This document shows, piece by piece, positions 13,922-34,178 of a stretch of DNA of 34,956 nucleotides. The notes beneath the pieces were generated by a model. The model worked only from the letters and a program-made list of their open reading frames with translations. It did no database searches and had not been told where the DNA came from. The position numbers and the translations under genes are program-made. This DNA comes from an uncultured Desulfosporosinus sp. (GTDB taxonomy: Bacteria > Bacillota > Desulfitobacteriia > Desulfitobacteriales > Desulfitobacteriaceae). The DNA is taken from contig CAKMJS010000136.1 of assembly GCA_927405585.1 (NCBI GenBank), positions 1-34,956 of the forward strand, in the 5' to 3' direction. Within the stretch, counting starts at the first letter, position 1. The number at the start of each line of letters is the position of its first letter.

Positions 13922-13956
13922 TGCTCTTTTCCCTCACTTAATTCATATTTTTGAGA

Positions 13957-13972: not shown

Positions 13973-13979
13973 CCTTTTA

Positions 13980-14131: not shown

Positions 14132-14168
14132 AACCGTTGCGTTAAGAAAGAAAGAAAGGAATGATTGT

Positions 14169-14582: not shown

Positions 14583-14593
14583 AACAATGTACC

Positions 14594-14621: not shown

Positions 14622-14680
14622 AAGGACCTAGCCACAGCACCTTGTTATCTATTACTTTGACTGTGCCTTCAGAATAGAAG

Positions 14681-14721
14681 GGAAGCCTTAGACCGCTTAG
14701 CGGTCCTGGGCTTCCTTTTTT
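14681..14721 (+). terminator. Terminator of the YtxH gene, overlapping the end of the DUF948 gene
   Basis: An outer stem GGAAGCC/GGCTTCC (14681-14687/14709-14715) encloses an inner stem GACCGC/GCGGTC (14691-14696/14700-14705), followed by TTTTTT (14716-14721). It lies inside the last codons of the minus-strand gene. Confidence 0.8.
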
Positions 14722-15047
14722 CGTCCTCGAATTTCATTCCAAAGCTCGATCACTTGTTTCGCCGCCAACAAGAAGACTGTCACGAAGTGCAACGGATTCT
14801 TTCTCAGCTCCTCAAGACTAACCGCTACCTCATTGACAGTACCACCTACATGCTCAGTGGTTTGTCTGACGAGGGATGTCAATGCTTGCACATCGTCTAG
14901 CATACTTGGCAGGTGAGTATTAACATTTTGAATGGTTTGCCTTGCCTCATCCGTGAGTTTGCGAATTGAGCGTACCCACAGCACCAATTCAATACCCAAC
15001 ACTCCTAAAACGATCGTTCCTACGAGTATACATACTTCATAAATCAT
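14697..15047 (-). CDS. DUF948-family membrane protein (YtxG-like)
   Basis: This 116-residue protein has one N-terminal membrane helix (about 4-25), then a coiled-coil-like region with the DUF948 pattern: SIRKLTDEARQTIQNVNTHL, then ALTSLVRQTTEHVGG. A basic tail ends in GRKKEAQDR. ATG follows GGAGG with seven-base spacing. Molecular function is unknown; relatives occur with YtxH proteins. It is 54 bases downstream of the S41 protease gene on the same strand, so they may share a transcript. Confidence 0.8.
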   Translation of the reverse strand: MIYEVCILVGTIVLGVLGIELVLWVRSIRKLTDEARQTIQNVNTHLPSMLDDVQALTSLVRQTTEHVGGTVNEVAVSLEELRKNPLHFVTVFLLAAKQVIELWNEIRGRKKEAQDR

Positions 15048-15101
15048 TTGCGTTCCTCCAATTCACCCAATTTATCTAATTAACCCAACTTAGTTAAGAT
15101 A

Positions 15102-16760: not shown

Positions 16761-16859
16761 TCCTATCTCCCTCCAAAGTCGTGCAACACTTTAGATTAAA
16801 GATTCGACACGTTCCTGCATTTATCCTTCGCAACATCCCGAAAAGTTCACTTCAAGCAA

Positions 16860-16894
16860 ATAAGAATGCCCTTCTTAAAGAAAGGCATTCTTAT
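16860..16894 (-). terminator. Terminator-like hairpin after the small coiled-coil gene
   Basis: ATAAGAATGCC (16860-16870) and GGCATTCTTAT (16884-16894) are perfect 11-bp arms around a 13-base loop. It lies between the gene ending at 16914 and the S41 gene starting at 16760, so these are probably separate transcripts. Confidence 0.6.
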
Positions 16895-16913
16895 AATTGA
16901 TAGTTACGCTTCA

Positions 16914-17150
16914 TTATATCGCCTTCCGTGTTGTAATTACATTACCCACGGCATTAATCGTCCCCTCGATATGGCTTACCTTAAACTTGAGATTATCTAT
17001 TTCCGCCCCATGCACTAGATTATTATGTTCTATCGCCTTTACAACCAAGAATATTTCATCTTGTCTCAACTCGAATCCATCCATTTTTGACTCTAATCCG
17101 TCAAGTTTAGTTAGGATGCGCCCGAGCATATCTTTAAGCTCTTTCTCCAT
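16914..17150 (-). CDS. Small coiled-coil protein
   Basis: This 78-residue protein has a heptad-like pattern across most of its length: LKDMLGRILTKLDGLESKMDGFEL, then IDNLKFKVSHIEGTIN. ATG follows AAGGTGGTGA. Similar short, coiled-coil proteins of unknown function are common in clostridia and sometimes resemble phage or chromosome-segregation accessory proteins, but I cannot assign this one. It lies between the helicase terminator and its own terminator, so it is probably transcribed alone. Confidence 0.65.
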   Translation of the reverse strand: MEKELKDMLGRILTKLDGLESKMDGFELRQDEIFLVVKAIEHNNLVHGAEIDNLKFKVSHIEGTINAVGNVITTRKAI

Positions 17151-17229
17151 CGGTTCACCACCTTACTCTTTCTAAATTATACCATCTCCAGTTTGACCCA
17201 TCAAGACAAATCGCACCTTAATAAATAAA

Positions 17230-17257
17230 GAAAAAGGTGAACACAATCACCTTTTTC
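17230..17257 (-). terminator. Terminator of the DEAD-box helicase gene
   Basis: GAAAAAGGTGA (17230-17240) and TCACCTTTTTC (17247-17257) are perfect 11-bp arms with a 6-base loop, just past the helicase stop codon. Flanking A and T runs allow use on both strands. Confidence 0.8.
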
Positions 17258-17271
17258 CTCTGAATTTGTCT

Positions 17272-18750
17272 CTATCCGTTTCTCTTATTATCCCGACGTT
17301 GTGCTCCTGAGGCGGCGCCTCCCCGAACATCGTTGCCTTTTCGTCTGGCCCAAGTGTCCGTTTTCTGTCCAAATCCGTCTCGGTTATAACCGCCTTGCTG
17401 AGGCCGAACATTATTCCCCATGCTTCTTCCGCGCATAGGCGCAGATTCCGTCAAACGAACTTCGACAGCTTCAGGCTCCTTAGTTATTATTTTTAAGGCA
17501 GCGGATAACACGGTTACTGAGTCGTTTTCTGCCAACAAATCTTGGGCTACCCCTTTATATTTCTCAATGTTTTCTTCAGCGATTACTCGTAGAATTTCAT
17601 TCATGGTCAGACGTTGCTGACCCTCAACCGCTTCAATGACGGTTGGGATAGGCTTACGGACTATTCTGCGCTTAATTACTGATTCAATCAGTCTGAGCAT
17701 ACCCATCTCACGAGGTGTGACTAACGTGATAGCTAAGCCAGATTTTCCAGCACGACCCGTTCGTCCGACCCGGTGTACATAACTTTCTGGATCTTGTGGG
17801 ATATCAAAGTTGAAGACATGCGTTACTCCGCTGATATCAAGTCCTCGAGCAGCCACATCCGTCGCGACTAAAACTTCAATCGTTCCATCTTTAAATTGAC
17901 GCAAGACACTGTCTCTCTTGCTCTGGGTCAAGTCGCCGTGAATTCCTTCGGCAGAATATCCACGCTTGCTCAAGGCCTCTGAAAGCTCATCGACTCGACG
18001 CTTGGTTCGTGCGAAGACAATTGCTAAGTCCGGTGATTGGATGTCTAGGATACGTGATAGGACATCGAATTTTAGTCGTTCAGAGACTTCTACATAATGT
18101 TGCTCGGTATCGGAGACTGTGACTCCCATAGCTTTAATGCTAATCAGTTCTGGTTCTTTCATAAACCGCTGGGCAATATTTTGAATCTGTCTCGGCATGG
18201 TTGCCGAGAAGAGTAAGGTTTGACGTTCCACTGGAATTTCCTTGAGGATCGTTTCGATATCTTCCAAAAAGCCCATATTCAACATTTCATCGGCCTCGTC
18301 CAAAACAAGGATTTTTATATCGTTAAGACGAATGGTCTTTCTCCTCATGTGGTCCATTAATCTCCCTGGAGTCGCTACAATGATGTGAGGGCGTTTCTTC
18401 AGCGCCCTTATTTGCCAGTCAATCCCTTGTCCACCATAAATGGGTAAAGCATGAATCCTCTTGTACTGCCCGATCTTATTCAATTCCTCAGCGACCTGCA
18501 CAGCGAGTTCCCGCGTAGGAGCCAAAACAATCCCTTGAACAAGTTCTGCCTGTTCCATGATTCTCTCTACAAGGGGTATCCCATAAGCTGCTGTTTTACC
18601 TGTTCCGGTTTGGGCCTGTCCAATTAAATCCTTACCCTGCATTGCAGCGGGAATCGTCATTTCCTGAATAGGCGTTGTCTCTTCAAACCCCATGTTAATA
18701 ATTGATCGAATTACTAATTCACTTAATCCCAGATCTGTAAATGTTGCCAA
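17272..18750 (-). CDS. DEAD-box RNA helicase (CshA/DeaD-like)
   Basis: Both RecA-like domains are present, with the Q motif (GFEETTPIQ), motif I (AQTGTGKT), Ia (APTRELA), Ib (TPGRLMDH), II (DEAD), III (SAT), V ([10 protein letters not shown]) and VI ([10 protein letters not shown]). An Arg/Gly-rich tail (MRGRSMG to the end) replaces a structured RNA-binding domain, as in CshA-type enzymes for mRNA turnover, ribosome assembly and cold growth. I place the start at TTG 18750, nine bases beyond AAGGAGA. The ATG at 18759 is one base from that ribosome site, too close. A leader of about 160 bases precedes it, with a promoter at 18917-18922. Confidence 0.93.
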
Positions 18751-18922
18751 TACTTTCATTCTCCTTTTTATAATGTTATATCATTAAGTTTTCCAAATGC
18801 GTCTCTATCTATAACTGCGCAGAAAAAGTTTCTATCACCTGCGGAAACAGACTATGTCGCGATCGCGCGTGAGGTTCGCCAACGGGGCAGAAGACGCTTG
18901 TGGCACTCAACTATATATTATA
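18751..18922 (-). promoter_or_regulatory. Helicase promoter and long 5' leader
   Basis: On the minus strand TGGTATAAT (TATAAT at 18917-18922) is an extended -10 box, with a weak TTTAAA 17 bases upstream. Transcription from about 18910 would give a leader of about 160 bases before the TTG start, including GC-rich segments around 18855-18905. Long leaders are known for cold-shock helicase genes, where they control mRNA stability and translation. No riboswitch class is recognised here. Confidence 0.5.
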
Positions 18923-19108: not shown

Positions 19109-20527
19109 TCAGGAAAGATCAGTCCCCTGTATAAGCCACTGATAAATAGTATAAGCTTTGACTAGATCATTCTGAGCATTGGAAACCTTCAGCTTCTGGT
19201 TTTCACAAGGCACCTTAGCAGCCTCCAAAGCAATATTTGAGAGCATTCCAAGATTATAGGAAAGTTGTACCTGTTCTAATTTCTCTTGTTCAATTACGAG
19301 CTTTGATTGCTCGTTCTTTAGTGCCTGGAGCTTATTATTTAAACCCTGATAAGACTTGTCAAAGTTTAATCTTGTTTTAAGTTTTAGATTCTGAATATCA
19401 TCTACTACTGAATCTGGAATAATACTGGACTCAGATTTAACTTTTAAGAGGATTTCTTTACTCCATGTAACTGCTTTATCGAGGTCGGCGTCATAATTCA
19501 CGGTATTGACATCGGACTCACTTACAGCCGGGTTAGCTGCAATCGTCAAATTGGTGTCAAAGTCTTGGCCAAGCATCGTGTTGAGACTACCTTTAATCCA
19601 GTTCCGATTTTCATTCAGTGTTTTAAATCCAATGGCCAAGTCTCCGACTTTTGCTTCCGTCGTTTTAACTTCCGTACTTGTCGTCATTCCAAGCTGAAAT
19701 CGCAGCTTGACTATGGTTAATTGACTTTGAAGAAGCATTAATTGTTTCATGAGGTTATCAACCTGGGCTGAAAGATCATTATAAGTAAGATAAAGTTGTT
19801 GCGCCCCCCAAACAATTCTATCATTAACTATAGATTGTTGAACACTTGCTACTCCGTTATCATCTGTCTGAGAGATCAAGGATTGAATTTGAGATTCTAC
19901 AGACATTAGTTGGGATTGGTACATATTTAGTAAATTGAAATTTAGATAATCAAGTGTCAGGGATAGTTGGTTATTAATAAGAGAAGTATCAACATAATCA
20001 GGCAAACCTGGTGTGACAGCCAAAGTTGGACTTAAAGAGGATGGATTAGGACTTGGGAATGCAACTGGAGTTTGAATCCATAAGAAGCCCCCATTATTGT
20101 TTTTGGCGCTGGTCAAAGCATACTTCGTAAGACCATCTTGAGAAACTAACATAAGACCCGGATCCGGCAGTTTGCTTTGATCAATCGGCAACCCAGCAAG
20201 TGAGGCTATTAAATCGCTTTTCGTAGCGCTAATGGCTTTTACCCCCGTTGCTTTGCCCGTAAAGTAAGCTATGATTCCCGCACATCTCGCATCTAATGGT
20301 GCCTGCATTTGCCTTAATCCGATAACTCCACTACTAATCTTATTTTCTCCTTCGTCAATCCGATTAGCGGTAGATTGTATGGTTAGATTCCTGTCAAGAA
20401 CCTCCTCTTTTAGATGTTCAAAACTAATAGCATTCAGAACCCCAGCACTCTGACTATCTGCCGCCATTACTGCGACTGGATGTAATAATAAAGCACCTGC
20501 CAAAATCATGCTAATTATCTTTTTCAT
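19109..20527 (-). CDS. TolC-like (outer membrane efflux protein family) exported protein
   Basis: This 472-residue protein starts at ATG after GGAGGG and has a signal peptide (about 1-22, ending VMAADS). It is almost entirely long alpha-helices with the two-fold TolC/OEP pattern. The first half holds LYLTYNDLSAQVDNL and RFQLGMTTSTEVKTTEAKV; the second holds LSYNLGMLSNIALEAAKV and ends YTIYQWLIQG. Both copies of the R/NLGM(T/L)S turn are clear. In Gram-negatives this family forms the exit duct of RND pumps, whereas the other proteins here look Gram-positive. Two promoters lie upstream, one overlapping a site like the efflux operator. The last codons are inside a short motif shared with intergenic DNA. 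Confidence 0.8.
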   Translation of the reverse strand: MKKIISMILAGALLLHPVAVMAADSQSAGVLNAISFEHLKEEVLDRNLTIQSTANRIDEGENKISSGVIGLRQMQAPLDARCAGIIAYFTGKATGVKAISATKSDLIASLAGLPIDQSKLPDPGLMLVSQDGLTKYALTSAKNNNGGFLWIQTPVAFPSPNPSSLSPTLAVTPGLPDYVDTSLINNQLSLTLDYLNFNLLNMYQSQLMSVESQIQSLISQTDDNGVASVQQSIVNDRIVWGAQQLYLTYNDLSAQVDNLMKQLMLLQSQLTIVKLRFQLGMTTSTEVKTTEAKVGDLAIGFKTLNENRNWIKGSLNTMLGQDFDTNLTIAANPAVSESDVNTVNYDADLDKAVTWSKEILLKVKSESSIIPDSVVDDIQNLKLKTRLNFDKSYQGLNNKLQALKNEQSKLVIEQEKLEQVQLSYNLGMLSNIALEAAKVPCENQKLKVSNAQNDLVKAYTIYQWLIQGTDLS

Positions 20528-21626: not shown

Positions 21627-21664
21627 AAGAGAGCCGACCACTTATAAAAGCAATCGGCTCTCTT
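21627..21664 (-). terminator. Terminator of the S-layer gene
   Basis: AAGAGAGCCGA (21627-21637) and TCGGCTCTCTT (21654-21664) are perfect 11-bp arms; on the minus strand ATTATTTCTC follows. It lies about 80 bases past the S-layer stop codon. Confidence 0.75.
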
Positions 21665-21743: not shown

Positions 21744-24700
21744 TTATGCTCCTGTGACTACTGTATAGCCATTTGTATCTGTCGTACTTGGAACATATAG
21801 AGTCTGAACTCCGTTAGGATCTTCTAGAGTCTTAACACTGATTTTAGCTGGAACAGCTTTAACTGTGATTGAGTCTGCTAAAGCAACATCTGCAGCTGCG
21901 AAAGTATAAGTTAATACATTACCTGCTGCATTATTTGATACAGCAGAAATAACTTTACCTTGAGTATTGTTCATAAATGTGAAGTCATCAGCGTAAAGTC
22001 CTGCAATTGTAGAATCTACAGGAGAATCGAAAGTAAGAGTAACAGTGTTAGCCCCATCTGATGCCACTACAGGAGCAGAAATAAGTTTTGGAGCTAGTGT
22101 ATTACTATAAACTGTTGTTGCAGCAATTGCTTTAACCAAGACACCTGCGACATTTGTGGAAGCTGGAGCAGCAGCTGTAATAGTATTAGCAATACCAAAT
22201 GCTTTGATAGTAGTTACTTTTGCTCCTGTGAAAGTCAAGATGACTTTTTTACCTGTCAGATATCCGCTATCAGCAGTCACGCCACCTACAACAAAATCAG
22301 CTAGAACAAGTGTACTTAATGCTTGGTCAAACTCTACTTCAGCCGTGAGATTAGAACCTGTATTATAGAGCTTGAATGAATTTGCAACTAAGGTCGGTCC
22401 GTAAGCTGCTGAAGCAGCTGCGGTTTGTACAGCGTTAGTTGTAGAGATTGCAGTCAGAATATTTCCTGCAACATCTTTCACATTAGCAACACGAATGGCA
22501 ACGATGTTTAAGGCAGTTGCACCAGCAGCTGTTGTATAGTTCGTTGGGAATACAATTTCTGCCGATTTATTGCCTTCGCCCATGTTTAATGTTGTGCCAG
22601 CTGGTAATGCTTTAACTTCAGCAAGTCCATTGGTGAAAGCATAATTTGCAACGTTGCTAATTGTCGATATATCCATAGCTTCGTTGAAATATGCAACCAC
22701 TTTATAAACTGAACCGGTTGAAGCAACAGCAACACTAAACACTGGTCCTGTTGTATCGGAACCACTTATTGTTGTTGTGAACTCATTCATTGCATTAGGA
22801 GTATATGCAGTGTCGACTACATTCTTAATAGTCAGAGAGTAATTCGAACCTTCTAAACCAGGTGTTAAAGTAATATCAAAAGTATCTGAGTTAGTGTTAA
22901 CTGTTGGCTTAGCTACTATACCTGTCATTCTAGCAGAAATATTAGTACCCGCAGAATCTTTTAGTTTAAAGTTTGCTAAGTTTTGTGCATAAAGATAATT
23001 TACAGTTTCGGAGAACTTAACACGAATAACTGTGCTAGAAGTAAGCGTAACTGTTGTAACAGTAGGTTTAACTGTGTCTTCAGTGGCTACATAGCTTACT
23101 CTTACATCATTTGTTCCGTCAATTTCATTGCCATAAGTGTCTACCATATCTTTGTCGAGAACTAATATGTTTCCACCCAGAACTACTTTACCTGACGCAA
23201 ATGTAAGCTTAACTACTGTATTACTAGTACCGCTTTTAAAAGAAGCCGCTGTAGGATTTGTTGCCCCGTCGCCAATATCATAATTCGATAAATTGAGGGC
23301 ACCATCAGTTGCAGCAGAATCCTTCATTGCCCGATCAAAGGTTACATAAACCGTTCCATTGTTCATCCCAGTAATGCCTGTTACTTTCGGAGCATTAGTT
23401 ACAGTATCAACATTAAAGTTCATCGTTGTTTTTGTTACCATGAAGCCAGCAGCATCAACAAGGCTTGCTCCTGAGCCAGCAGGTACAGTCAACGTGTTTG
23501 CTCCAACAGGAAGAGTTGTCCCGAAGGTAAGTTCAATTCCGTCAGCATAATTACCCAAAGTAGCATTCTTTAAAGCTGCAGAAATATAACCATAGTTAAC
23601 TACACTCTGGTCATTAATCTTGAAGTTTGATGCATCAGCACCAGCAGCAAGAAGTTTTAGCGGTTCTGAGAATTTAACCGTTACTTTTGTATTACCAGAT
23701 GCTGTTACCGATGCAACTGTTGGAACAGTTGTATCCGTGAATACTACTTCTTGCTCAATTTTAGGAGCTGTTTGTAACAAATCAGCAGTTAGAATCGCTT
23801 TATTAACTGTAACCCAAGTTTTTGCATACTGTGCTTGAGGAGCATTTAATGTAATCAATACAGTTTGTTTATCAGCCTGCAACACTGCTATATCAGTACC
23901 TGAAACTAAGGCTGACCCGCCAACTAAATAGTTAGCTTCATTTTCTGCTGTATCTTTATCTACTACAACATTGAACATAACTTTAATTTGATTTAGGTTA
24001 ATAGCGCTTACACTACTAACAGACGGCGTAGCCGGCACAGAACCGACAACTTTTGCTACAGATGCGTCACTAACAACTGTAGTTCCACCAAGTGCAGTTA
24101 CTACAGCATTAGCAGCAAGTTTCATACCGACGCTAGCAAGAGCAGCATCCCCACCATTTTCAGTGTCAGTCAGAACGATCGGAGCGCCTGACTTAGCAGC
24201 TAAGGAGGAAGCAGAGAGTGAGTCAACTAAGTGTGCTTGCGTTCCGTTAGCAACATAGACGTTGTTATAGGAGTAGCCAAGGGTATCAAGCACTACTTTA
24301 TTAGTAGCGAAACGATCCGCACCAGCAAGGCGAGTTGCGCCAGCGATGTCAGATACGAGGGTAGGTCCACCGACGAGATATGTTTTAGAACCAACAATGC
24401 TGGAAGCCATTGGAAGGGTTCCATTAACATTAGCTACTACGATAGCGTAGTTGTTAGCAGCTGCAAAGGAAGCTACTGACAAAGCATCAGCCAAAGCATA
24501 GTAACCAACTACAAAGGTACCTACAGGACTAACCAGTTGTTCGTTAATTTTTGCTGCAGTAGCGATACGATCATCGCCTTTGAGAACTACAGCTGTAACA
24601 CCAGGGATTGCGTTGACTTGATCAACGACTGCTTGTTTCAGTGCTCCAACGACATAAACTTTCGTGACTTTGAGTTTAATCAGTTCATTCTTAGTAGCTT

Positions 24701-24980
24701 CAGTCAGAGAGTCGTTGTCTGACAATAAAATAGGAGAAGTTTTTCCAGCTAATGGTGCTGCTGCGAGAGCATCCACCAAGTTAGCATCTGCTGCTGGAGC
24801 TAGAACCGCAGTAGTGGCAGATACGAATTTTTCTGCTACTGCAATAGCAGTTCCGAATCTGTCAGCTCCGGAAAGCCGATCTGTTGTTACCCCTGTTGCT
24901 GCGAAAGCATTCATCGGGGCCATAGTCGCAACCATTGCCACTAGGGCTAGGGAGGCTATGAATTTTTTAGTTTTCTTCAT
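21744..24980 (-). CDS. S-layer protein: three CWB2 repeats plus Ig-like (SbsA/Big_5) domains
   Basis: This 1078-residue protein has a signal peptide cut near AFA-ATG (27/28). Three CWB2 (PF04122) cell-wall repeats follow at about 34-125, 126-215 and 218-315, recognised by DRLSGADRFGTA, GDDRIATA and TRLAGADRFATN. CWB2 triplets bind a secondary wall polymer. About seven Ig-like repeats follow to the C-terminus, each with a pattern like KVTVKFSEPL or IRVKFSETV. Thr, Ala, Val and Asn are abundant and Cys is absent, as in S-layer subunits. No SLH domain is present. ATG follows AGGAG at a rather long 12-base spacing, with a structured leader upstream. It is the probable main surface-lattice protein, although I cannot measure abundance. 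Confidence 0.9.
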   Translation of the reverse strand: MKKTKKFIASLALVAMVATMAPMNAFAATGVTTDRLSGADRFGTAIAVAEKFVSATTAVLAPAADANLVDALAAAPLAGKTSPILLSDNDSLTEATKNELIKLKVTKVYVVGALKQAVVDQVNAIPGVTAVVLKGDDRIATAAKINEQLVSPVGTFVVGYYALADALSVASFAAANNYAIVVANVNGTLPMASSIVGSKTYLVGGPTLVSDIAGATRLAGADRFATNKVVLDTLGYSYNNVYVANGTQAHLVDSLSASSLAAKSGAPIVLTDTENGGDAALASVGMKLAANAVVTALGGTTVVSDASVAKVVGSVPATPSVSSVSAINLNQIKVMFNVVVDKDTAENEANYLVGGSALVSGTDIAVLQADKQTVLITLNAPQAQYAKTWVTVNKAILTADLLQTAPKIEQEVVFTDTTVPTVASVTASGNTKVTVKFSEPLKLLAAGADASNFKINDQSVVNYGYISAALKNATLGNYADGIELTFGTTLPVGANTLTVPAGSGASLVDAAGFMVTKTTMNFNVDTVTNAPKVTGITGMNNGTVYVTFDRAMKDSAATDGALNLSNYDIGDGATNPTAASFKSGTSNTVVKLTFASGKVVLGGNILVLDKDMVDTYGNEIDGTNDVRVSYVATEDTVKPTVTTVTLTSSTVIRVKFSETVNYLYAQNLANFKLKDSAGTNISARMTGIVAKPTVNTNSDTFDITLTPGLEGSNYSLTIKNVVDTAYTPNAMNEFTTTISGSDTTGPVFSVAVASTGSVYKVVAYFNEAMDISTISNVANYAFTNGLAEVKALPAGTTLNMGEGNKSAEIVFPTNYTTAAGATALNIVAIRVANVKDVAGNILTAISTTNAVQTAAASAAYGPTLVANSFKLYNTGSNLTAEVEFDQALSTLVLADFVVGGVTADSGYLTGKKVILTFTGAKVTTIKAFGIANTITAAAPASTNVAGVLVKAIAATTVYSNTLAPKLISAPVVASDGANTVTLTFDSPVDSTIAGLYADDFTFMNNTQGKVISAVSNNAAGNVLTYTFAAADVALADSITVKAVPAKISVKTLEDPNGVQTLYVPSTTDTNGYTVVTGA

Positions 24981-25200
24981 CTAGTAAATTTCTCCTCTCG
25001 TCTTTTGGATATCTTCTTCTGTCTAGTGTCTTGTGGAAAAACCAATATACCTTTCTCCACCCCAAGGACGTCTTTTAGTCGTCCCTCACCTCCTTAAAAG
25101 TTGTAGCACAATCTTCTTTAGACATTGCGCAATATCTAAAAGCATTCCACGGAATGAGCGGGAGCGTCCCCCCTAAAGATGAAAATTGGTGTTCATCTCT
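24981..25200 (-). promoter_or_regulatory. S-layer gene leader with a strong SD-like site not followed by a gene
   Basis: On the minus strand AAGGAGGTGAGG (SD core at 25087-25095) lies about 107 bases ahead of the S-layer ATG, with only a four-codon frame (GTG AGG GAC GAC stop). A GGACG/CGTCC hairpin follows. TGCTACAAC, an extended -10-like box, sits just upstream, so the SD-like site would be close to the mRNA 5' end. This resembles the STAB-SD arrangement known from Bacillus cry3 genes. The rest of the gap to 25468 shows only short dyads (CATTCC/GGAATG near 25144-25157). Confidence 0.35.
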
Positions 25201-25468
25201 CCCGTGTCGTACCCTTTAGAACCGCAGGAGAATGGGAAAACCACAAACAGGGTCTCCACTCGCTATATGTATTCTTCATAAAAGCGAATATTCCTGCTTG
25301 CAGATCAACTTATTTATGGGCATTTTGTGAAGATTTTACCCACAGACAAGTTTTCATAGGACTCTCGATTAGTTTACACCAAAACCTAGTAGTTTTCCAC
25401 TCTTTTCTTAAAAATATACTCCAAAAGTTCGTATTTTATTATTAAATTTAGCTAATATTTCCTTTTTA

Positions 25469-27838
25469 TTATGGTAAAACGCTCACCACACCGGTCCCAC
25501 CCACTGCAATTTTCTGGGTGGGAGGAGTCTGCAAGGAAAGGATAAATTGTGCTGTGGCGGTGGGTACAGCGGTTTTGAGCACCGGTAGCAAGGGGGAACC
25601 TGTGCGTGCGGCCAGAACAGCGATACTGAGAGCATCTGAAAATTGTTCTCCATTGGTAATAAAGTACTGGCCGTCGGTCGACGCGCCCATGAGCTGCTCA
25701 TTGACGAGTGCCGCAGTGGCGTAGCGGTCACTCCCACCATACCTTTGAGCGTTTTTCAAGGTTCGCAGGAGAGCCTCAGAAATCACGCCCTGTCCCCCGA
25801 TGGCATAGGTCTTTTGAAGGCGCAAGGCAGAGTAGGCTTTTTGGGTCTCAAGCGGTAAGCTATTCGGGTCGGTCAGCAGTATGGGGATCCCCTGACGAGC
25901 TGCGAACGGTGCGACAGCAAGGGCATCCGCGAAGTCTAACCCGCTGACTAAGACAGCCTGTCCACTCGTGCTTTTGAGACGCTCAGCCATAAGGGCTGCA
26001 GTCTCATAGCGGTTCTGACCGCCAATACGTTCGAGGGTTGCTTCTGGAAGGAGTTGCTGAAGGGTTTGAACGAGTGAATCTTTTATGACTCCGTTTCCTC
26101 CTAGGACTACGATGCGGGAGGGCTGAAGATCCAAGAGCGCTGTTCCTAAGCGGGGGTCTAGCAAATCATTGTAGGTGAGGAGCACCGGGGCATTGGCCTG
26201 ATAAGCTAAGGGAATTGAGGCTAGGGCATCGGGCCAGCCGTCATACCCGGCTAAAAAAACCGTATCCGCACCGTTCGGCCAGCCCTGCCGGGCTATGTCG
26301 AGCGAGGTTGCAATTCGATCCTCTCCTGCTAGGCGATCTGGGAGGGGTTCGGTTTCCAGCTGGAAGGTCCAGGCGTAGGAGCGTGCCTTCCCGGAAAGGT
26401 CCTGGTAGGTAAGCTCGATGGAATGAATGCCGGAGGTTAACGCCGCGATTTGGGAAGCGGTCACTTCATTTTGGGTCATGGTGGTGGGCAGGAGCGTACC
26501 ATCGAGGGTGAGTTGGACACTTCCCGCTTGAACCATCGAAATACTATCGAAATGAGCTTTGATCTCACTTAGATTCTGAACATAGGAGTTCGGCAGTGGG
26601 GAGTCCGCTTGGATGGTGGGGAGTACCCCCTTCAAGGCATTGACCATACCAAAGCCCTGGGTCTCAGTCCAGCCCTTCTGATGAATATCTGTGGCACTGG
26701 CCAGAAGTTTACTGGTAACTTGTGTACTGGTCCAAGTCGGATTGGCAGACCAGATCAGTGCCGCGACGGCCGAGACCATAGGGGCGGCCATGGAGGTTCC
26801 CCCCAAGTAGACATAGCCGTTCGAAAGGGCTCGTGGGTAGGTACTGAGGATATGATTGCCTGGTGCTGTAAGACTTAAGGGGAGACCGTAATTGGAGAAA
26901 TCGGTTAATTCATTCTTGGAAGTGGTTGCTGCTACGGAGAGCACTCCGGGCAAGGCTGCTGGATAACTTATCGTGCCCACACCATCATTTCCGACGGCAG
27001 CGACCACTAGGATGCCCTTACTCTGAGCATAGTCAACCGCCTCAGTAATGTGAACGGAGTTGTCCAAGGTGCCGGAGCCTGTAGGCTTAATGCCTTCCCC
27101 AATGCTCAGGTTAATAATATGTGCCCCGTGATCCGCGGCCCAGCGGATTCCTGCGGCAACGTCCATGTCATCCCCTTCGCCCTTGCTATCCAACGCTTTG
27201 ATAGGCATGATGATGCTGGAGGGGGCGATCCCCGCAATCCCGAGCTTATTATTCCTGGTGGCTGAGATGATTCCGCTGACATGGGTGCCATGCCCATGAT
27301 CGTCCTGTGGAGGGCTTGAAGGACTCTGTTCGTTGTAGCCCTCCACCCATTGTCCTTGAAGGTCCGGATGCTTAAGGTCTAAGCCTGTATCGATCACGGC
27401 TACGACGATGGCTTGTCCTTGAGTTAAGTCCCAGGCTTCATTCGCTTGAATCTGTGGTAAATACCATTGATAGCCTTCCTGCTCCCAAAAGCTTGCCCTT
27501 CCATAGAGAGGATCATTAGGCGTTGAAAGGGCATAGTAGGGAACGGGTTCACTCCATTTGACAATATCCGGCCAAGTACTGATTTTCTGCTCTACGTCTG
27601 GGCGGGATTGTCCTGGTGGTAAGGTTAAGCGCACGAGCTCTCCCCTTGCTTCGACGTTCCCCAAAGCGCTCAGTTGAATTAAGAGTTGGTCAGAATAGCG
27701 GACGTGCAAAAGCAGGGTTCGATCATTGGTTGGTAGTAAGGTTGCTTGGCCCATGGTAAGGGGTGTGGACCCCAACAAAAGCGCAAAAACTAGTATGACC
27801 CCTAGGAGTCTCAGCGTTGCTTTCTTAATTCTGCTCAC
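25469..27838 (-). CDS. Subtilisin-like (S8) protease with three C-terminal CWB2 repeats
   Basis: This 789-residue exported protein has a signal peptide (about 1-32), a propeptide-like region (about 40-105) and an S8 catalytic domain (about 125-400). The complete triad is Asp150 (AVIDTGLD), His183 (HGTHVSG) and Ser349 (GGTSMAAP), with oxyanion Asn284. A linker domain (about 405-495) precedes CWB2 repeats from about 500 to the end (DRLAGEDRIAT, RIGGQNRYETA, RYGGSDRYATA). It likely matures or sheds surface proteins while bound to the wall, the S-layer protein next door being an obvious candidate. The GTG start directly abuts AAGGAG; an ATT codon nine bases downstream has better spacing, so the true start is unclear. 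Confidence 0.93.
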   Translation of the reverse strand: MSRIKKATLRLLGVILVFALLLGSTPLTMGQATLLPTNDRTLLLHVRYSDQLLIQLSALGNVEARGELVRLTLPPGQSRPDVEQKISTWPDIVKWSEPVPYYALSTPNDPLYGRASFWEQEGYQWYLPQIQANEAWDLTQGQAIVVAVIDTGLDLKHPDLQGQWVEGYNEQSPSSPPQDDHGHGTHVSGIISATRNNKLGIAGIAPSSIIMPIKALDSKGEGDDMDVAAGIRWAADHGAHIINLSIGEGIKPTGSGTLDNSVHITEAVDYAQSKGILVVAAVGNDGVGTISYPAALPGVLSVAATTSKNELTDFSNYGLPLSLTAPGNHILSTYPRALSNGYVYLGGTSMAAPMVSAVAALIWSANPTWTSTQVTSKLLASATDIHQKGWTETQGFGMVNALKGVLPTIQADSPLPNSYVQNLSEIKAHFDSISMVQAGSVQLTLDGTLLPTTMTQNEVTASQIAALTSGIHSIELTYQDLSGKARSYAWTFQLETEPLPDRLAGEDRIATSLDIARQGWPNGADTVFLAGYDGWPDALASIPLAYQANAPVLLTYNDLLDPRLGTALLDLQPSRIVVLGGNGVIKDSLVQTLQQLLPEATLERIGGQNRYETAALMAERLKSTSGQAVLVSGLDFADALAVAPFAARQGIPILLTDPNSLPLETQKAYSALRLQKTYAIGGQGVISEALLRTLKNAQRYGGSDRYATAALVNEQLMGASTDGQYFITNGEQFSDALSIAVLAARTGSPLLPVLKTAVPTATAQFILSLQTPPTQKIAVGGTGVVSVLP

Positions 27839-27896
27839 TCCTTAAGGCACATTCAAGTAAATAACCAGTCAGTATGCCAGTCTAAACACGGAAGTC

Positions 27897-27953
27897 AGAG
27901 GTCAGAAGCCGGATGTATCAGATCGTTGTATTCCTTTCCGATCTCTGGCCTCT
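27897..27953 (-). terminator. Large imperfect hairpin after the transglycosylase gene
   Basis: AGAGGTCAGAAGCCGGA (27897-27913) pairs with TCCGATCTCTGGCCTCT (27937-27953) at 15 of 17 positions, counting G-U, around a 23-base loop. It lies between the gene ending at 28034 and the protease gene starting at 27838. No T-run follows, so it may act as an mRNA end or be a mobile palindromic repeat. Confidence 0.45.
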
Positions 27954-28033
27954 GTTATCAGACCTCTGGAGTGGCATCTTTGACTTGTTATTTTCTTTCA
28001 TATGCCTAATACTTCATATGACCTGGGAGATTC

Positions 28034-30079
28034 TTAGGGGAGCAGATTCGCCGTTAAGTCTGAATCTAAGGAGAGCACGCCTGAGCCTCCGAGCTGGTAG
28101 AAGCGTCCGACGGTTCCTGTGTCTTGGGTAAAGGTGGCATAGCCCCTGACTTGTTGAACGTAATCCTGAGTGACGTTACCTAAGGTCTGATTTCCCGTCA
28201 GAAGGAGCGTACCTCCTAATTTAGCCACCAAGGGTCCGCCTGCCAGAGCATCGGCAAAGACGTTCCCTGAGCCATTCGTGAAGAAGAGGTTGGGCAGGGA
28301 CGGTCGAAAACCGTCGAGAATGGCTTGCATGGTCAGAAAACGATCGGTTCCTCCATACCTTTTGAACGGAAGCGACGCAGGGAGGATTTTCGTGGGTATG
28401 ACCCCTGTTCCTCCGACAACGTTCAGAGCCTGAACGGCATTAGCTTTGAGAAAGGCGTTCACACTGGCAGGGATTCCTGTTGGAGGAGTCAGTAAGATCG
28501 GTTGCTGTAATTGAGCAGCGATAGGGGCGACGGTAAGGGCATCCGGGGCTGCTTCCCCGGTAGCTAGAAAGACTGTTTTGTCCGGTCCGAGACCTAGGGC
28601 CTCAGCGACTTTGACAGAGGTTTCGTAGCGGTCTGGGCCGGATAAACGCTGCACGGTATAGGTTTTCTCTAAGGTCTTTTGAATGGCTGGACTAATCCAG
28701 CCTCCGACGATTACGATCGTGTGAGCTTTAAGTTTGGTCAGTTCTGCCGAGACTTGAGGTAGAAGTTCTTTACTTGGTGTGATCAATAAGGGGGCATCAT
28801 ATTTCTTGGCAAGCGGGGTGCTAGTCAGGGCATCCGGCCAAGCAGCATCTTCCGAGGCGGAGAGGATCACGGTGCCTGCCCCTTGGGGCCAGCCTTCTTC
28901 AGCAATGGCAATTGCTGTATCCTCGCGTCCGGTTCCTCCTAGGCGGCGAAAGGTTTTTTGTAGGGCTTGAGTGTAGCCGTCCTGGGCTTGTTGCCAGGTT
29001 GTCGGGTCGAGATTGGGGAGTGCGAGCACCGCCCAAAACCATTTGCGGGCGGCTTGAATATCGTCCAAGTTCTTAGCACTATTTAAACGACTGGTGGCAT
29101 AGGCTGTGATCACTTTAGAGGCCGAGATTAACTTGGCCGCAAAGGTAGCCTTGTCTGTCCCCGTTGTGGCATTATAACCCGTGACATAATAGCCTAAGGA
29201 ATAAATGGATGTCGGGGTTGCAGGCTGATCAATGTGTAATTTTAGCCAATAATCTCCATTGGCTTGTTCGCTTCCTGATCCTCCTCCGCTCAGGAGGAGA
29301 GTAGGGTTAATCTCTAAATCTCCAAGATGATAGGGAGTTGGAGTGCTCCAAGTGCTGAGATAACTGGGTGACCATATCGGAGTTGGGCTATCGCACAGAG
29401 GTGCTTGGGGTAAGGTTGAAGGAGCCGGTATCGTGGTCGGATAGGTTTGGGTAATGGTTGAGTTATATTTCAGACCCATCAAGGCGAAGACATTATTCTG
29501 GTAGGGTACAGTTTTTTGGCTTGCGGCATAGTTGGGATTGTTCTTATTACTCCAGCCGTTATACGCCCAAACTGCAAAGTACCAGTTCTCTAATTTGTTG
29601 CGGTCTCCATCCCCTATTTTCGGGACCGTGCGCCACTTCTGGTTCAGAACCCGGGCTCCCTCGGAGATGTTGTAGTCATATTCCGTTTTGAGTCTTTCAA
29701 TTTTTGGCAATTGAGCCGGATCACTCGCATTATAGTTCGAGATTTGCATGATGCCGATCCCCACGCCATCTCTCCCCATTAAGGGAGTGAGAGGGTTGCC
29801 GTCTTTGAATTGGACCCAGCCGGATTCTTGCCAAGCGACCGCTTTTAAGACCACGGGAGGGATATTGTATTGGTTAGCCCATTTAGTAATGCTGGCCGAT
29901 ACTTCGGCTTGGGTTGGCACTGTAAGTGTACTGACTCCCTCGGTAAGGGGGGGTAACGTTTCTGCATAAGCCTCACTCGGTAGACCCACGACAAGAGACG
30001 TACTCATTAGAAGAAAAAGAATTAAGAGTTTGGATATCCTTTTTTTCACATTTGACTCGGATCCACCGGATTTACGCAC
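28034..30079 (-). CDS. Lytic transglycosylase (SLT) with three C-terminal CWB2 repeats
   Basis: GTG at 30079 follows GGAGG with suitable spacing, giving 681 residues. A signal peptide (about 12-39, ending EAYA) leads to a goose-lysozyme-like SLT domain (about 55-205). Its motifs are VAWQESGW with likely catalytic Glu85, GIGIMQIS at 107-114 and VWAYNGW near 170-176. Such enzymes cleave the glycan strand to 1,6-anhydro ends. A middle region (about 210-385) has no family I recognise. Three CWB2 repeats fill the C-terminus (RLGGTGREDTA, RLSGPDRYETS, RYGGTDRFLTM). A TATAAT lies at 30103-30108 upstream. The enzyme probably remodels wall near the S-layer anchor. Confidence 0.9.
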   Translation of the reverse strand: MRKSGGSESNVKKRISKLLILFLLMSTSLVVGLPSEAYAETLPPLTEGVSTLTVPTQAEVSASITKWANQYNIPPVVLKAVAWQESGWVQFKDGNPLTPLMGRDGVGIGIMQISNYNASDPAQLPKIERLKTEYDYNISEGARVLNQKWRTVPKIGDGDRNKLENWYFAVWAYNGWSNKNNPNYAASQKTVPYQNNVFALMGLKYNSTITQTYPTTIPAPSTLPQAPLCDSPTPIWSPSYLSTWSTPTPYHLGDLEINPTLLLSGGGSGSEQANGDYWLKLHIDQPATPTSIYSLGYYVTGYNATTGTDKATFAAKLISASKVITAYATSRLNSAKNLDDIQAARKWFWAVLALPNLDPTTWQQAQDGYTQALQKTFRRLGGTGREDTAIAIAEEGWPQGAGTVILSASEDAAWPDALTSTPLAKKYDAPLLITPSKELLPQVSAELTKLKAHTIVIVGGWISPAIQKTLEKTYTVQRLSGPDRYETSVKVAEALGLGPDKTVFLATGEAAPDALTVAPIAAQLQQPILLTPPTGIPASVNAFLKANAVQALNVVGGTGVIPTKILPASLPFKRYGGTDRFLTMQAILDGFRPSLPNLFFTNGSGNVFADALAGGPLVAKLGGTLLLTGNQTLGNVTQDYVQQVRGYATFTQDTGTVGRFYQLGGSGVLSLDSDLTANLLP

Positions 30080-30176
30080 TTGGAGTCCTCCCTATTTTAC
30101 AAATTATAAGATCTACACTACGATTAGTTTCTATAAAGTGGGGGTTCTTTGATGTTCGCTTAAGCTGACGAGTTCT

Positions 30177-31763
30177 TTAGATGAAATAGTATACGATTCC
30201 ATTCACGATGGCACGTGACGCTGTTGCTCGATAGGTGGGATTTAAGAGTTGTTGCTCCCCATTAGGATTGGAGATGAATTGTACTTCTACGAGAATTGCG
30301 GGTATGGTACTGTTTTTACCCGTGACATAAAGACTCGCATCCTTAACCCTCCTGTCAATGTTCAGTCCATCGTTATACGGTTCTAGGGCGTTGATAAGAG
30401 CGGTATGGACGGCAGTCGCTAACTCGCGGCTTTCAGCAGCGTGAGGGGTGTAGCCGCTATACAAGGTTTCAGTGCCTTGGACACTAGGGTTTGAAAAGGC
30501 GTTATTATGGATGCTGACGAAAATGTCAGCGTCGGAACTGTTGGCGATTGCTACGCGACTCTCAAGGTCAGATAACACTCCACCCGTTCCCAGAAGGACA
30601 TCGGTGGTTCTGGTTAAGATCACATAAGCTCCTTCAGTACGCAGGAAATCGGCGACCTGCAAACCAATCATCAGGTTAATGTCTTTTTCCTTCGTGCCTG
30701 CTGGTCCGGTCGCTCCAGGATCTACACCGCCATGACCTGGGTCGATCACAATCGTTCTCCCGGCCAAGAGATAGCCCGCAGGAGGTTTTCCGGCTAGGGT
30801 TTCTACGACGACCGAGGAAACAACGCTTGTCCCACCCAGGATATAGATTGTCTCCACGGGAGTGGTTTGCTTAGCCGCGGAGCTTAAAGCTGAATAGATA
30901 GTAATAGGGACTGAGTTTCTTTTCGTGATAAAGAGCGGGGAGCTAGTTTTGGCAGCCAAGGCTGCTCCAACCATGGCGTCGGCATACCCCTCCCCGGACG
31001 CGATATAAGCTGTTGGAGACGAATAGGTTGCCTGAGTATAGCTATAGATCTGGGCGGCTGTATCATAGCGGTCAACCCCGCCGATGCGGGTCTCAACGGG
31101 TATATTGGTCAGGGTGCTGGGGGGTACAACACCCGTCCCTCCGATGACGAGAACATGCGACGGGTCCAATTTAAGGTAGGCTTGACGAATCGCCGTGGGC
31201 ATTTCTTCAGCTTTAGTTAAGAGGAGCGGAATTTGTTTGATCCCTGCATATGGAGCGCTTACCAAGGCATCCGGAAAATTTTCACCATTGACAAAGATCA
31301 CGGTGTCGCTGGGGATCCTCTGGGCAATCAGGGCGGAGGTTTCATAGCGATCCTTTCCTCCGATGCGTTCCCAATCGAGACCGATTTTATCTAAGCCGGC
31401 AGTTAATTTGTTCGTCACAAGACCTTCCCCACCCAAAATGACGATCTGGGTCGCTCTCAAGCGTTCTAGTTCTGCGCTAACCCGTGGGTCTAAGGAATTC
31501 CCATCGGTCAGGAGGATCGGGGCATTAAGTTGTTTGGCCAAAGGGGTGGCAGATAAGGCATCTGGGTAGGCTTGCAGCTCACTAAGAATGACAGTGGTGG
31601 CTGATGTCCAACCTTGCTGGGAAGCAGCAATTGCTGTAGCAACCCGGTCCTGCCCCCAGATGCGGTCTGTGGAGAGGTTAAGCGGTGCTGCACTAGCGAT
31701 TGTCGCGTAACATCCACTAATAACCAACGTGACCAAGAGTAATTTGACGAACTTCGTTTTCAT
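30177..31763 (-). CDS. N-acetylmuramoyl-L-alanine amidase (Amidase_3) with three N-terminal CWB2 repeats
   Basis: ATG at 31763 follows AAGGAGGTC and gives 528 residues. The signal peptide ends near 26 (ASA). CWB2 repeats occupy about 33-325 (DRIWGQDRVATA, RIGGKDRYETS, RIGGVDRYDTA). The Amidase_3 domain (about 335-528) has zinc ligands His344 (DPGHGG), Glu359 (TKEKD) and His419 (SIHNN), and catalytic Glu493 (EVQFISNP). It cuts the bond between muramic acid and the stem peptide, acting in cell separation, wall turnover or spore formation. Domain order is opposite to the neighbouring protease and transglycosylase. It is divergent from the GH18 gene. Confidence 0.95.
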   Translation of the reverse strand: MKTKFVKLLLVTLVISGCYATIASAAPLNLSTDRIWGQDRVATAIAASQQGWTSATTVILSELQAYPDALSATPLAKQLNAPILLTDGNSLDPRVSAELERLRATQIVILGGEGLVTNKLTAGLDKIGLDWERIGGKDRYETSALIAQRIPSDTVIFVNGENFPDALVSAPYAGIKQIPLLLTKAEEMPTAIRQAYLKLDPSHVLVIGGTGVVPPSTLTNIPVETRIGGVDRYDTAAQIYSYTQATYSSPTAYIASGEGYADAMVGAALAAKTSSPLFITKRNSVPITIYSALSSAAKQTTPVETIYILGGTSVVSSVVVETLAGKPPAGYLLAGRTIVIDPGHGGVDPGATGPAGTKEKDINLMIGLQVADFLRTEGAYVILTRTTDVLLGTGGVLSDLESRVAIANSSDADIFVSIHNNAFSNPSVQGTETLYSGYTPHAAESRELATAVHTALINALEPYNDGLNIDRRVKDASLYVTGKNSTIPAILVEVQFISNPNGEQQLLNPTYRATASRAIVNGIVYYFI

Positions 31764-32141
31764 GGATGACCTCCTTAATCTTCATTTCAGCAAAGTATAA
31801 TCTTTGTTTCTTTTCAACAGTCAGTTTATGCTTGCTGCTAATTACAAAAAAAGATCAGTCCCTGTCGTCTACTCCTTTCGACAAATAAAGATGAAGTCCT
31901 GTCGTTAAAAAAATGAAATGCTCTATTTAAAACAATATGAGTCAATAGTCCTATCCTAAGACTTCGCTAGATGTGTTGTCTGAATTTTCTGCATTCCGTA
32001 GAACTTTTTTCTCTGATTACGTAGGATTTAGCTGATACTTGGCGAATTATATGTATAACACCAAAAGCTATATTTTTCACTTTTGAACTGGCAAAGTAAA
32101 ATCCATTAGAAAATTTATAAAACTCAAGGAGGAAAATCATC
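31764..32141. other. Divergent promoter region between amidase and GH18 genes
   Basis: This 378-base AT-rich gap must hold promoters for both CWB2 genes. I see TATACT-like and TATA-rich boxes, but none with a convincing -35 partner. A degenerate direct repeat lies at 31850-31867 (AAAGATCAGTCCCTGTCG) and 31888-31905 (AAAGATGAAGTCCTGTCG). The first copy matches 15 bases of the sequence at the end of the TolC-like gene apart from one extra C. A long minus-strand frame here lacks a ribosome site and is not accepted as a gene. Confidence 0.4.
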
Positions 32142-34178
32142 GTGCTAAGAAAGAAAGTTACATTTCTAATGCTTGTTCTTCTTTTAATTAACTTAGTAAG
32201 TCTTTCGTTCCTACAGTTGCCTACCTTAGCAGATACGATTAGCAAACCCTTGCGCATAGCAGGTTTGACCCGCTTTGATACGGCTATTCAGATCTCTCAG
32301 GCCACTTGGTCCAGTGCGAATTCCGTTGTTCTAACCCGTGGAGACAATTTTCCGGATGCATTAACCGGCGCTGTTTTGGCAAAAAGTTCAAGGGTAAACG
32401 GTCCCCTGCTCTTAACGGACTCCCAGCAACTCCTTCCGGAAGTATTGACGGAAATTCTGCGCCTCCAGGCGCAACACGTCTACATTCTTGGAGGTACTGG
32501 AGCTGTCTCTGTGGAGGTACAAAATTCCCTAACTCAGAATAACCTAACAGTACATCGGATTGAGGGGCAGGATCGTTTCGAAACGTCAGCCAATATTGCT
32601 TTAGAAGCGGTTACTAACTCTTCTCAAGCGTTCATTGCCTCAGGATACTCTTTTGCGGATGCCCTAAGTGTCTCGTCTTACGCGGCTGCTCATGGCATTC
32701 CACTTCTACTCACGGACTTAGACACCATCCCCGCGGTGACACTCCAAGCGCTGCAGGCCTTAGACGTTCGTTCAATTACCATGATTGGAGGGGAGGGGGT
32801 TATTTCCGCCTCTGTTAAAAATCAGTTAGAAAGCTTGGGATTTTCTGTTGATCGTTTAGCTGGGGCTGATCGCTATTTAACCAATATTTCGGTCCTCAAT
32901 AAATTGGACTATAACACGAACACGGTCTATGTGGCTACAGGCAATGATTTCCCAGACGCCCTCTCGGGTTCCATCCTCGCTGCTAAAGAGAATAATCCCA
33001 TCATGCTTGTTCCTTCTGACAATCTTAATTCTTCAACGCTAGCTTATCTTAATGCTCGTCGTACTCAAGGATCCCTATTTACCCTCTTCGGAGGATTTGG
33101 AGTGATCAAGTATGGGATAGAGGACATCATTCGAACCGGCTCTGTGCATCCCCGTATTTCCTTACAATATCAGCAGGCATATGGTACTAATGTTTTAAAT
33201 GACTATCTTGCTCAGCTCACCCTGCTTCCCGTTAAAGCAACCGACTCTGTCGATATCCTCTCCCCCAATCTCTTCTCGCTTGACATCTTAACGGCTGGTC
33301 AGACAGTGGCGAACGGTACTTTCACTGGACCGTGGAGCCTATCCGACAATAGCTATGCGCAACTTGTCACCGCCGCCCACGGAAGAGGGCTTAAACTCAT
33401 GCCGCTGATTGGCGCCGCTTGGAACGCTGAGGGTAAGGCCGTGGTGGACTTAACCTTAACCCAGGAGGCCTCACGCACCAAGCTGGTCAATAACCTTGTA
33501 ACCATGGTGCAGAATACCGGTGCCGACGGAGTGGTGATTGATTTTGAGTATATGAGTGATTCGACGGGCCCCTACCTTACCCAATTTATGAAAGAGCTTT
33601 ACGGGAAACTTCATGCTCAGAATAAACTGCTGATCCAAGCCGTCCCAGCTCGCACCTCTTCAACTGACTGGAACACTGAATATAATTATCGTGACTTGGC
33701 TCAGTATGTTGATTATCTTAATATCATGACCTATGACTACAGCCACTCAGCCCCCGGTGCAATTGCTCCGATATCTTGGATGAAAAAGGTTATGGATTAT
33801 GCCGAGAGCCAAATCCCTGATATGAACAAAGTCCTGCTCGGCATCCCTTACTACGGACGGGACTGGACAAAGACCGGAGATACGTATACCCGTAAATCTG
33901 TAGAACTAACCGGCGCGACAAGCACAGCAGCCAGCAACTATGCTCAAATCAAGCGGGATACCTCGAATGGCGATACAGTCGGAATCCCCTACTACACTTA
34001 TACAGATAAAGCCCTCAATCAACACACGGTCTATTTCGATGACCTTCTAAGTTGGAAGGCAAAACTAAGCCTCCTCGACACCTATGGACTCGGCGGTATC
34101 GGTTCCTGGTCCCTCTACTGGGTATACAAAGAAACTGCCCCTTCCCTCTACTCTCTACTCAAAGAACACCTCCGCTAA
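32142..34178 (+). CDS. GH18 glycosidase with three N-terminal CWB2 repeats
   Basis: GTG at 32142 follows AAGGAGG with ten-base spacing and gives 678 residues. The signal peptide ends near 30 (TLA). Three CWB2 repeats occupy about 35-330 (RIAGLTRFDTA, RIEGQDRFETS, RLAGADRYLTN). The GH18 barrel fills about 340-678: the active-site strand is DGVVIDFE (462-469) with catalytic acid Glu469. It also has YLNIMTYDYS and a GIGSWSLYW segment near the end. Bacterial relatives of this type act as N-acetylglucosaminidases on peptidoglycan or cortex (SleL/YdhD-like) rather than on chitin. It is the only plus-strand gene of the CWB2 group and ends before a clear terminator. Confidence 0.93.
   Translation: MLRKKVTFLMLVLLLINLVSLSFLQLPTLADTISKPLRIAGLTRFDTAIQISQATWSSANSVVLTRGDNFPDALTGAVLAKSSRVNGPLLLTDSQQLLPEVLTEILRLQAQHVYILGGTGAVSVEVQNSLTQNNLTVHRIEGQDRFETSANIALEAVTNSSQAFIASGYSFADALSVSSYAAAHGIPLLLTDLDTIPAVTLQALQALDVRSITMIGGEGVISASVKNQLESLGFSVDRLAGADRYLTNISVLNKLDYNTNTVYVATGNDFPDALSGSILAAKENNPIMLVPSDNLNSSTLAYLNARRTQGSLFTLFGGFGVIKYGIEDIIRTGSVHPRISLQYQQAYGTNVLNDYLAQLTLLPVKATDSVDILSPNLFSLDILTAGQTVANGTFTGPWSLSDNSYAQLVTAAHGRGLKLMPLIGAAWNAEGKAVVDLTLTQEASRTKLVNNLVTMVQNTGADGVVIDFEYMSDSTGPYLTQFMKELYGKLHAQNKLLIQAVPARTSSTDWNTEYNYRDLAQYVDYLNIMTYDYSHSAPGAIAPISWMKKVMDYAESQIPDMNKVLLGIPYYGRDWTKTGDTYTRKSVELTGATSTAASNYAQIKRDTSNGDTVGIPYYTYTDKALNQHTVYFDDLLSWKAKLSLLDTYGLGGIGSWSLYWVYKETAPSLYSLLKEHLR

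Follow-up and report, generated by a model that had tools for sequence, protein, structure and literature searches.

Gene content of the locus

The window analysed here is the whole of contig CAKMJS010000136.1 (C136; 34,956 bases) of an uncultured Desulfosporosinus sp., whose genome (assembly GCA_927405585.1) comprises 4.48 Mb in 181 contigs. At 21744-34178 it carries five consecutive open reading frames (ORFs) whose products contain three CWB2 stretches apiece: a surface (S)-layer-like protein, a subtilase, a lytic transglycosylase, an amidase and a glycosidase. The features of this locus are listed below. Ranks for guanine-cytosine (GC) content and codon usage refer throughout to a sample of 165 own ORFs of at least 200 amino acids (aa) from fetched stretches, many picked around CWB2 genes, and not to the whole genome.

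21627..21664, minus strand: terminator-like stem of 17 pairs, 3' of the S-layer gene, called by consensus scan alone (4 sites of this type versus 14.1 expected in shuffles)
21744..24980, minus strand: S-layer-like protein, 1078 aa; signal-peptide-like N-terminus, three CWB2 domains (35-307), then a chain of Ig-like domains
24981..25468, minus strand: gap of 488 bp, 5' of the S-layer gene; for its final 310 nt, 2 of 100 shuffles fold as well or better (z -2.4)
25469..27838, minus strand: subtilase (S8), 789 aa; three C-terminal CWB2 domains; top GC content among the 165 ORFs
28034..30079, minus strand: lytic transglycosylase (SLT), 681 aa; three C-terminal CWB2 domains
30177..31763, minus strand: N-acetylmuramoyl-L-alanine amidase (Amidase_3), 528 aa; three N-terminal CWB2 domains
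25469..31763, minus strand: the three enzyme genes from subtilase to amidase, a presumed replacement block judging by divergent branches, raised GC and altered order
32142..34178, plus strand: GH18 glycosidase, 678 aa; three N-terminal CWB2 domains; divergently transcribed

CWB2 overall scored above the Pfam cut-off in all five proteins, and the repeat motif P[ILV][ILV][LV] (PMC4973711; M and I also allowed) was present in 11 of the 15 repeats, four being without it. Catalytic families were assigned with E-values of 1.4e-64 (Peptidase_S8), 4.1e-8 (SLT), 1.1e-48 (Amidase_3) and 1.5e-34 (GH18). The original prediction, made from the letters of the window, had named five CWB2 proteins in a row, an S-layer subunit and these four enzymes, with the triplets at either end of the chain. 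All of this was borne out, three proteins carrying the anchor at the N-terminus and two at the C-terminus, and the identity of the S-layer protein was further backed by codon usage and a structural model.

Alignment with relatives revealed conservation of D150, H183, N284 and S349 in the subtilase, E85-S86 and the IGIMQ sequence in the transglycosylase, H344, E359, H419 and E493 in the amidase, and the DGVVIDFE motif (462-469) in the GH18 protein. Taking these to be the catalytic residues, as in the respective families, they are intact in all four enzymes as judged from the alignments. The model of the transglycosylase was poor in the catalytic part, with a mean predicted local distance difference test score (pLDDT) of 60.9. 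The nearest PDB match of the GH18 protein was 4wiw, a GH18 protein of unnamed function (E 3e-72), followed by YdhD, a probable chitinase and cortex-lytic enzymes. The enzyme is likely a glucosaminidase, and its substrate would be peptidoglycan.

The product of 21744-24980 contained no Cys and had an isoelectric point of 4.9. Beyond CWB2 it matched no Pfam family (E up to 0.01), and comparison with sequences of solved structures returned just two collagenase domains (E 0.006-0.01). Its gene had a codon adaptation index of 0.828, the highest of the 165 sampled ORFs, with 15 reference ribosomal and elongation factor genes at 0.72-0.83; this ribosomal-like codon usage suggests strong vegetative expression. 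In a model built from 9 sequences (pLDDT 70.5, predicted template modelling score 0.38), the CWB2 triplet superposed on Cwp8, Cwp6 and SlpA of Clostridioides difficile (Z 31.7-35), and residues 317-415 matched SbsB (Z 13.1, root-mean-square deviation (rmsd) 1.8 over 90). With SbsC, EA1 and Sap the matched stretches were longer but the rmsd was large, which shows no more than a chain of similar domains. As the top Foldseek match was a Chlamydomonas flagellar glycoprotein with a template modelling score of 0.12, and many further rows were unrelated Ig/FN3 chains, the fold was read from the low-rmsd rows. Assignment as an S-layer subunit is well supported, since the top codon usage is accompanied in the model by a SlpA/Cwp-type anchor joined to SbsB/SbsC-like domains. 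The candidate subunit would thus combine a clostridial-type anchor with bacillus-type lattice domains.

The PDB matches of the GH18 protein after 4wiw, with YdhD and cortex-lytic enzymes among them, would also suit a locus for germination or mother-cell lysis, with the GH18 enzyme as kin of YdhD and SleL/YaaH, and the same window encodes a LysM plus Hydrolase_2 (SleB-type) wall hydrolase at 6768-7793. Such a role is very improbable given the codon usage of the adjoining S-layer gene, which points to vegetative cells.

Clustering of CWB2 genes and recurrence of the locus in the family

Genome-wide, 61 CWB2 matches were found on 16 contigs, distributed over 20 intact genes and one broken piece. 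The five-gene cluster of 12.4 kb holds 15 of the 61 domains and 5 of the 20 genes, and when 20 genes were placed at random on 4.48 Mb, five fell inside 12.4 kb in none of 200,000 trials. At the same locus in two one-contig genomes, 21 of 72 CWB2 domains lay in 23 kb (G014; 0 of 200,000 random placements) and 15 of 63 in 34 kb (G007; 235 of 200,000). The clustering of CWB2 genes is not due to chance. All of the other 15 intact CWB2 genes were scanned and encoded one Amidase_3, one NlpC/P60, two CAP, one VanW, RCC1, LRR, RTX, PKD and other domains, with no fusion to S8, SLT or GH18 among them.

For comparison, 45 genomes of the family (G codes) were searched with the catalytic parts of the four enzymes, subtilase and transglycosylase matches being counted at E<=1e-10, and 35 named loci with the same GH18 (L codes) were used. 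By title, 19 of the 35 belong to Desulfosporosinus and the others to Peptococcaceae, Desulfitobacteriaceae, Gracilibacter and similar; the closest to the window, with 76% identity in GH18, is L118, from Desulfosporosinus sp. MAG_BO167. The locus is also present in cultured strains, such as D. acididurans (L126) and D. hippei (L135). All four enzymes lay on one contig in at least 20 of the 45 genomes, three in at least 8 and two in at least 6, with spans of 2.4-33 kb, and two or more were together in at least 34. Fewer than two were together in the other 11, several of which are fragmentary, but the single-contig G001 is also without pairing. A GH18 of the same kind (>250 bits) was present in at least 39 of the 45. 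The usual order is S-layer-like gene, amidase, subtilase, GH18 (divergent), further genes and transglycosylase. In 23 of the 35 named loci the amidase/subtilase side encodes an N-terminally anchored CWB2 protein of 700 aa or more; of the remaining 12, ten reach the contig edge first, L129 has a 572-aa CWB2 protein and L140 has other genes there.

The synteny comparison proposed in the original prediction therefore came out in its favour. That prediction had also called the enzyme combination unusual, which does not hold within the family, where four enzymes on one contig are common to at least 20 genomes, although the combination does differ from the C. difficile locus. It had further named an even scatter of CWB2 proteins without conserved synteny as evidence to the contrary: the other CWB2 genes are indeed scattered, but the cluster recurs across the family, so this objection falls. 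The peculiarity of the window genome, absent from the prediction, is a divergent amidase-transglycosylase-subtilase block.

The fusion of CWB2 to many unrelated domains elsewhere in the genome (RCC1, PKD, LRR, CAP, VanW, RTX) would be in keeping with clustering as a by-product of domain shuffling or duplication, the genes having unrelated jobs. Such an origin of the locus is improbable, as the same four catalytic types recur jointly across the family beside an S-layer-like gene.

The subtilase catalytic part found no match in 12 of the 45 genomes, of which G003, G004 and G005 (99-100% complete) keep an S-layer-like gene at the locus. Because of these absences the subtilase is not a general S-layer maturase. 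Four Desulfosporosinus loci (L079, L125, L127 and L135) have more than one S-layer-like CWB2 gene around the GH18 gene, namely two or three, and these may encode alternative S-layers. L124 and L141 each have two GH18-CWB2 genes, ca. 2.6 and 4.4 kb apart, respectively, and L141 also has a second CWB2 subtilase.

Polymer synthesis and secretion genes

Genes for synthesis of the wall polymer, which the original prediction suggested looking for next to the locus, were found there in each of the three relatives that were annotated. At this position, G018 encodes Wzx- and Wzy-type proteins, glycosyltransferases, a sugar transferase, a DegT aminotransferase and a 2-epimerase; G007 encodes Polysacc_synt_2, a Wzy-type protein, a C5-epimerase, AMP-binding and DltD proteins; and G034 encodes glycosyltransferases, DegT, DltD, AMP-binding and MBOAT proteins. 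DltD occurred in 26 of the 45 genomes and near the locus on its contig in at least 11, with a fragment in a twelfth; none was found in G018. The polymer genes found in the window genome, for a sugar transferase and for DltD, AMP-binding and MBOAT proteins, lie on another contig, C22 (L087; G000:C22, 2039-9544), beside a beta-helix CWB2 protein and in the place where L118 has its transglycosylase. From synteny C22 is expected to be linked to the window, and its Dlt-like set may modify the CWB2 ligand. A test of C22 as a continuation of the window detected neither an end overlap nor shared 14-mers in the 400 end bases.

SecA2, likewise suggested as a neighbour, was not found. The SecA family gave one match in 43 of the 45 genomes and none in G037, and the window genome has one full copy and a broken piece. 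Because a single match per genome is the rule, SecA2 is not part of this system as far as the SecA family search reaches. The broken SecA-like piece (G000:C13:16413-16820) has an internal stop and lies ca. 8 kb from a CWB2-CAP gene.

A divergent subtilase-transglycosylase-amidase block

The gene order in the window (S-layer, subtilase, transglycosylase, amidase, GH18) differs from that of the relatives. When each protein was compared with its own set, the best identity was the lowest of the set for the amidase (48%, rank 1 of 20), the subtilase (38%, rank 1 of 25) and the transglycosylase (42%, rank 1 of 19), whereas for GH18 it was 76% (rank 10 of 37). Trees, which were quick trees for the transglycosylase and the S-layer anchor, gave end branches of 1.77 (amidase), 3.5 (subtilase) and 2.48 (transglycosylase), compared with 0.2 (GH18) and 0.4 (S-layer anchor, which is 64% identical to that of L151). 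The lattice part of the S-layer protein was too variable to place, with matches in 3 of the 45 genomes. Among the 165 ORFs the amidase, subtilase and transglycosylase ranked 4, 1 and 5 in GC content. The subtilase stretch between catalytic domain and CWB2 was 104 aa long, versus 147-216 aa in nine relatives. By these trees the three enzymes form lone divergent branches, and GH18 and the S-layer anchor stand on ordinary ones.

Because of the divergent branches, the raised GC and the changed order, the simplest reading is that the three wall enzymes replaced the ancestral ones as a block. On the evidence of gene content, anchors, intact catalytic residues, synteny and the polymer genes adjoining in relatives, the locus is probably the family's S-layer biogenesis locus, into which, in the window genome, a subtilase, transglycosylase and amidase block was swapped.

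Several observations weigh against this. Long branches can reflect fast evolution. GC is only modestly shifted (z 1.9-2.7), and further genes of this genome, among them those for AMP-binding and MBOAT proteins on C22, are raised too. When median identities are compared, six rows of the transglycosylase set fall below the window enzyme, so that it is not the lowest. No close kin or donor of the subtilase was found in 398 genomes of the phylum, where the best other match was 39%, and in 82 genomes of the class only the own match was returned at 1e-70; the donor search for amidase and transglycosylase reached no further than the family. In their trees, neither the S-layer anchor nor the GH18 of the window falls into the main Desulfosporosinus clade, and the contig of L118 stops before the S-layer gene, so that an ordinary branch is no proof of vertical descent. 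As to the locus as a whole, subtilase or amidase is missing from some family loci, and the set is therefore not obligatory; the polymer genes of the window genome lie on a contig unlinked to the window; the GH18 protein also matches GH85 (6e-9), so another glycan is possible; and the lattice, the wall polymer and the enzyme activities are predicted ones.

The lack of a close donor would be expected if the three enzymes were native, fast-evolved and reshuffled in place with no foreign DNA. Surface proteins evolve fast, and in the GH18 tree only L118 is near the window lineage. It is, however, in L118 that amidase and transglycosylase stand on ordinary branches (0.44 and 0.16), and the window copies are just 46% and 40% identical to them. 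Given also that the flanking GH18 and S-layer anchor are not accelerated and that GC is raised in all three enzymes, native evolution of this kind is considered unlikely.

Alternatively, the incoming genes could have been paralogues residing at other sites of this genome or of a related one. Twelve of the 45 genomes carry a second transglycosylase (frame lengths 611-665 aa), and G009, G017 and G023 carry a second subtilase (880-898 aa). Identities of the window transglycosylase are mostly 49-55% with first copies of the genus (44% for G022) versus 46-49% with second copies, a small difference, and at E<=1e-10 it is the one transglycosylase match in the window genome. An origin from paralogues accordingly appears improbable.

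Returning to the replaced block, the S-layer cassette of C. difficile reportedly differs between strains, as described by Dingle in 2013. The window resembles that cassette variation (PMC8809339) in that neighbouring surface genes differ sharply between relatives while the flanks are conserved; there, slpA belongs to the variable part, whereas in the window it is the three enzymes that stand out, the S-layer anchor having an ordinary branch. On the tree of the S-layer anchor, cassette switching of the C. difficile type is disfavoured for the window. We tentatively propose that wall hydrolases and surface protease may constitute an exchangeable block in a conserved S-layer locus, anchor and GH18 staying in place. 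If true, this switch of an "autolysin cassette" would be the reverse of the C. difficile S-layer cassette switching.

Flanking genes and other features

On the far side of the S-layer gene the window contains the following:

9582..18759, minus strand: left flank with RND, MFP (membrane fusion protein), DUF948-like, S41 peptidase and DEAD helicase genes; same order in G018, G035 and G014 (L097-L099)
19109..20527, minus strand: TolC-like (OEP) protein, adjoining the S-layer gene on its left; G035 and G018 have weak relatives in the corresponding position

The DEAD helicase is 86-87% identical in G018, G035 and G014, and a short plus-strand ORF (14169-14582) lies inside this flank. A TolC-like gene follows the flank in G035 (26%) and G018 (24%, E 5e-9); in G014 an ORF of similar size occupies its place, with an OEP match only below threshold. 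An AcrB-type RND pump, a membrane fusion protein and a TolC-like OEP are thus encoded (9582-13921 and 19109-20527) in a presumed single-membrane bacterium. Between the TolC-like and S-layer genes is a long gap without a clear gene (20528-21743), in which two short stretches (21205-21370) are similar to a small protein encoded at this position in relatives; they may be a lipoprotein remnant, possibly a decayed copy (weak, E 0.018). A HicB-like antitoxin ORF is found close to the contig end (34480-34833). A sigma-70-type scan only yielded 27 promoter-like sites versus 20.1 expected. No Rfam family exceeded its gathering score within the window, nor was a tRNA found in it.

Discussion

The original prediction suggested a polymer-bound surface machine for lattice growth, shedding or germination; these are putative roles. 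In the proposed mechanism, the locus combines a highly expressed S-layer subunit held by CWB2 with wall hydrolases bearing the same anchor, and because of this shared anchor all CWB2 products would sit on the same secondary wall polymer, just beneath the lattice. Transglycosylase, amidase and GH18, the latter as a probable glucosaminidase, would act on the wall as the cell grows and its daughters separate, opening and trimming it by cuts in the glycan and the stem-peptide link under the lattice, and the opening of the wall may let new lattice be inserted. The subtilase may trim or turn over surface proteins, comparable to the action of Cwp84 on SlpA. In the window genome the block would have replaced an ancestral amidase-subtilase pair and a distal transglycosylase; the GH18 and S-layer genes on either side of it would be of the kind usual in the family.

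The closest known system is the slpA/cwp locus of C. difficile with its adjacent anionic polymer locus; the window locus would work alike without being the same locus. Proteins of C. difficile are held on the wall polymer by three CWB2 domains, and genes for polymer synthesis adjoin its S-layer locus (PMC4973711); the same anchoring arrangement may apply to the window. In both systems the CWB2 S-layer protein is clustered with a surface protease and additional CWB2 proteins, and polymer genes adjoin, for the window locus in relatives (PMC4973711). Unlike in C. difficile, no SecA2 was found for the window locus, the protease is a Peptidase_S8 instead of the cysteine protease Cwp84, a type sought at the locus only, wall hydrolases make up the core of the cluster, and the lattice part resembles SbsB/SbsC.

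The single enzymes also have counterparts. CWB2 is combined with an N-acetylmuramoyl-L-alanine amidase in Bacillus subtilis LytC and in C. difficile Cwp6; unlike these, the window amidase sits in an S-layer cluster. C. difficile Cwp19 is, like the window enzyme, a lytic transglycosylase with three C-terminal CWB2 domains, but has a GHL10 catalytic domain where the latter has SLT (PMC6016235). S-layer-associated autolysins such as AcmB are known in Lactobacillus (PMC5007774), and the window enzymes differ from them in anchor domain and catalytic family. Among the literature matches listed, no open-licence paper title concerned a locus of the window type.

Combined, these results define a candidate S-layer locus for Desulfosporosinus and relatives. 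The recurring set of S-layer, amidase, subtilase, GH18, transglycosylase and polymer genes makes the coupling of wall and lattice growth testable, and, if the block swap is true, it would raise the question of why wall enzymes are exchanged as a unit.

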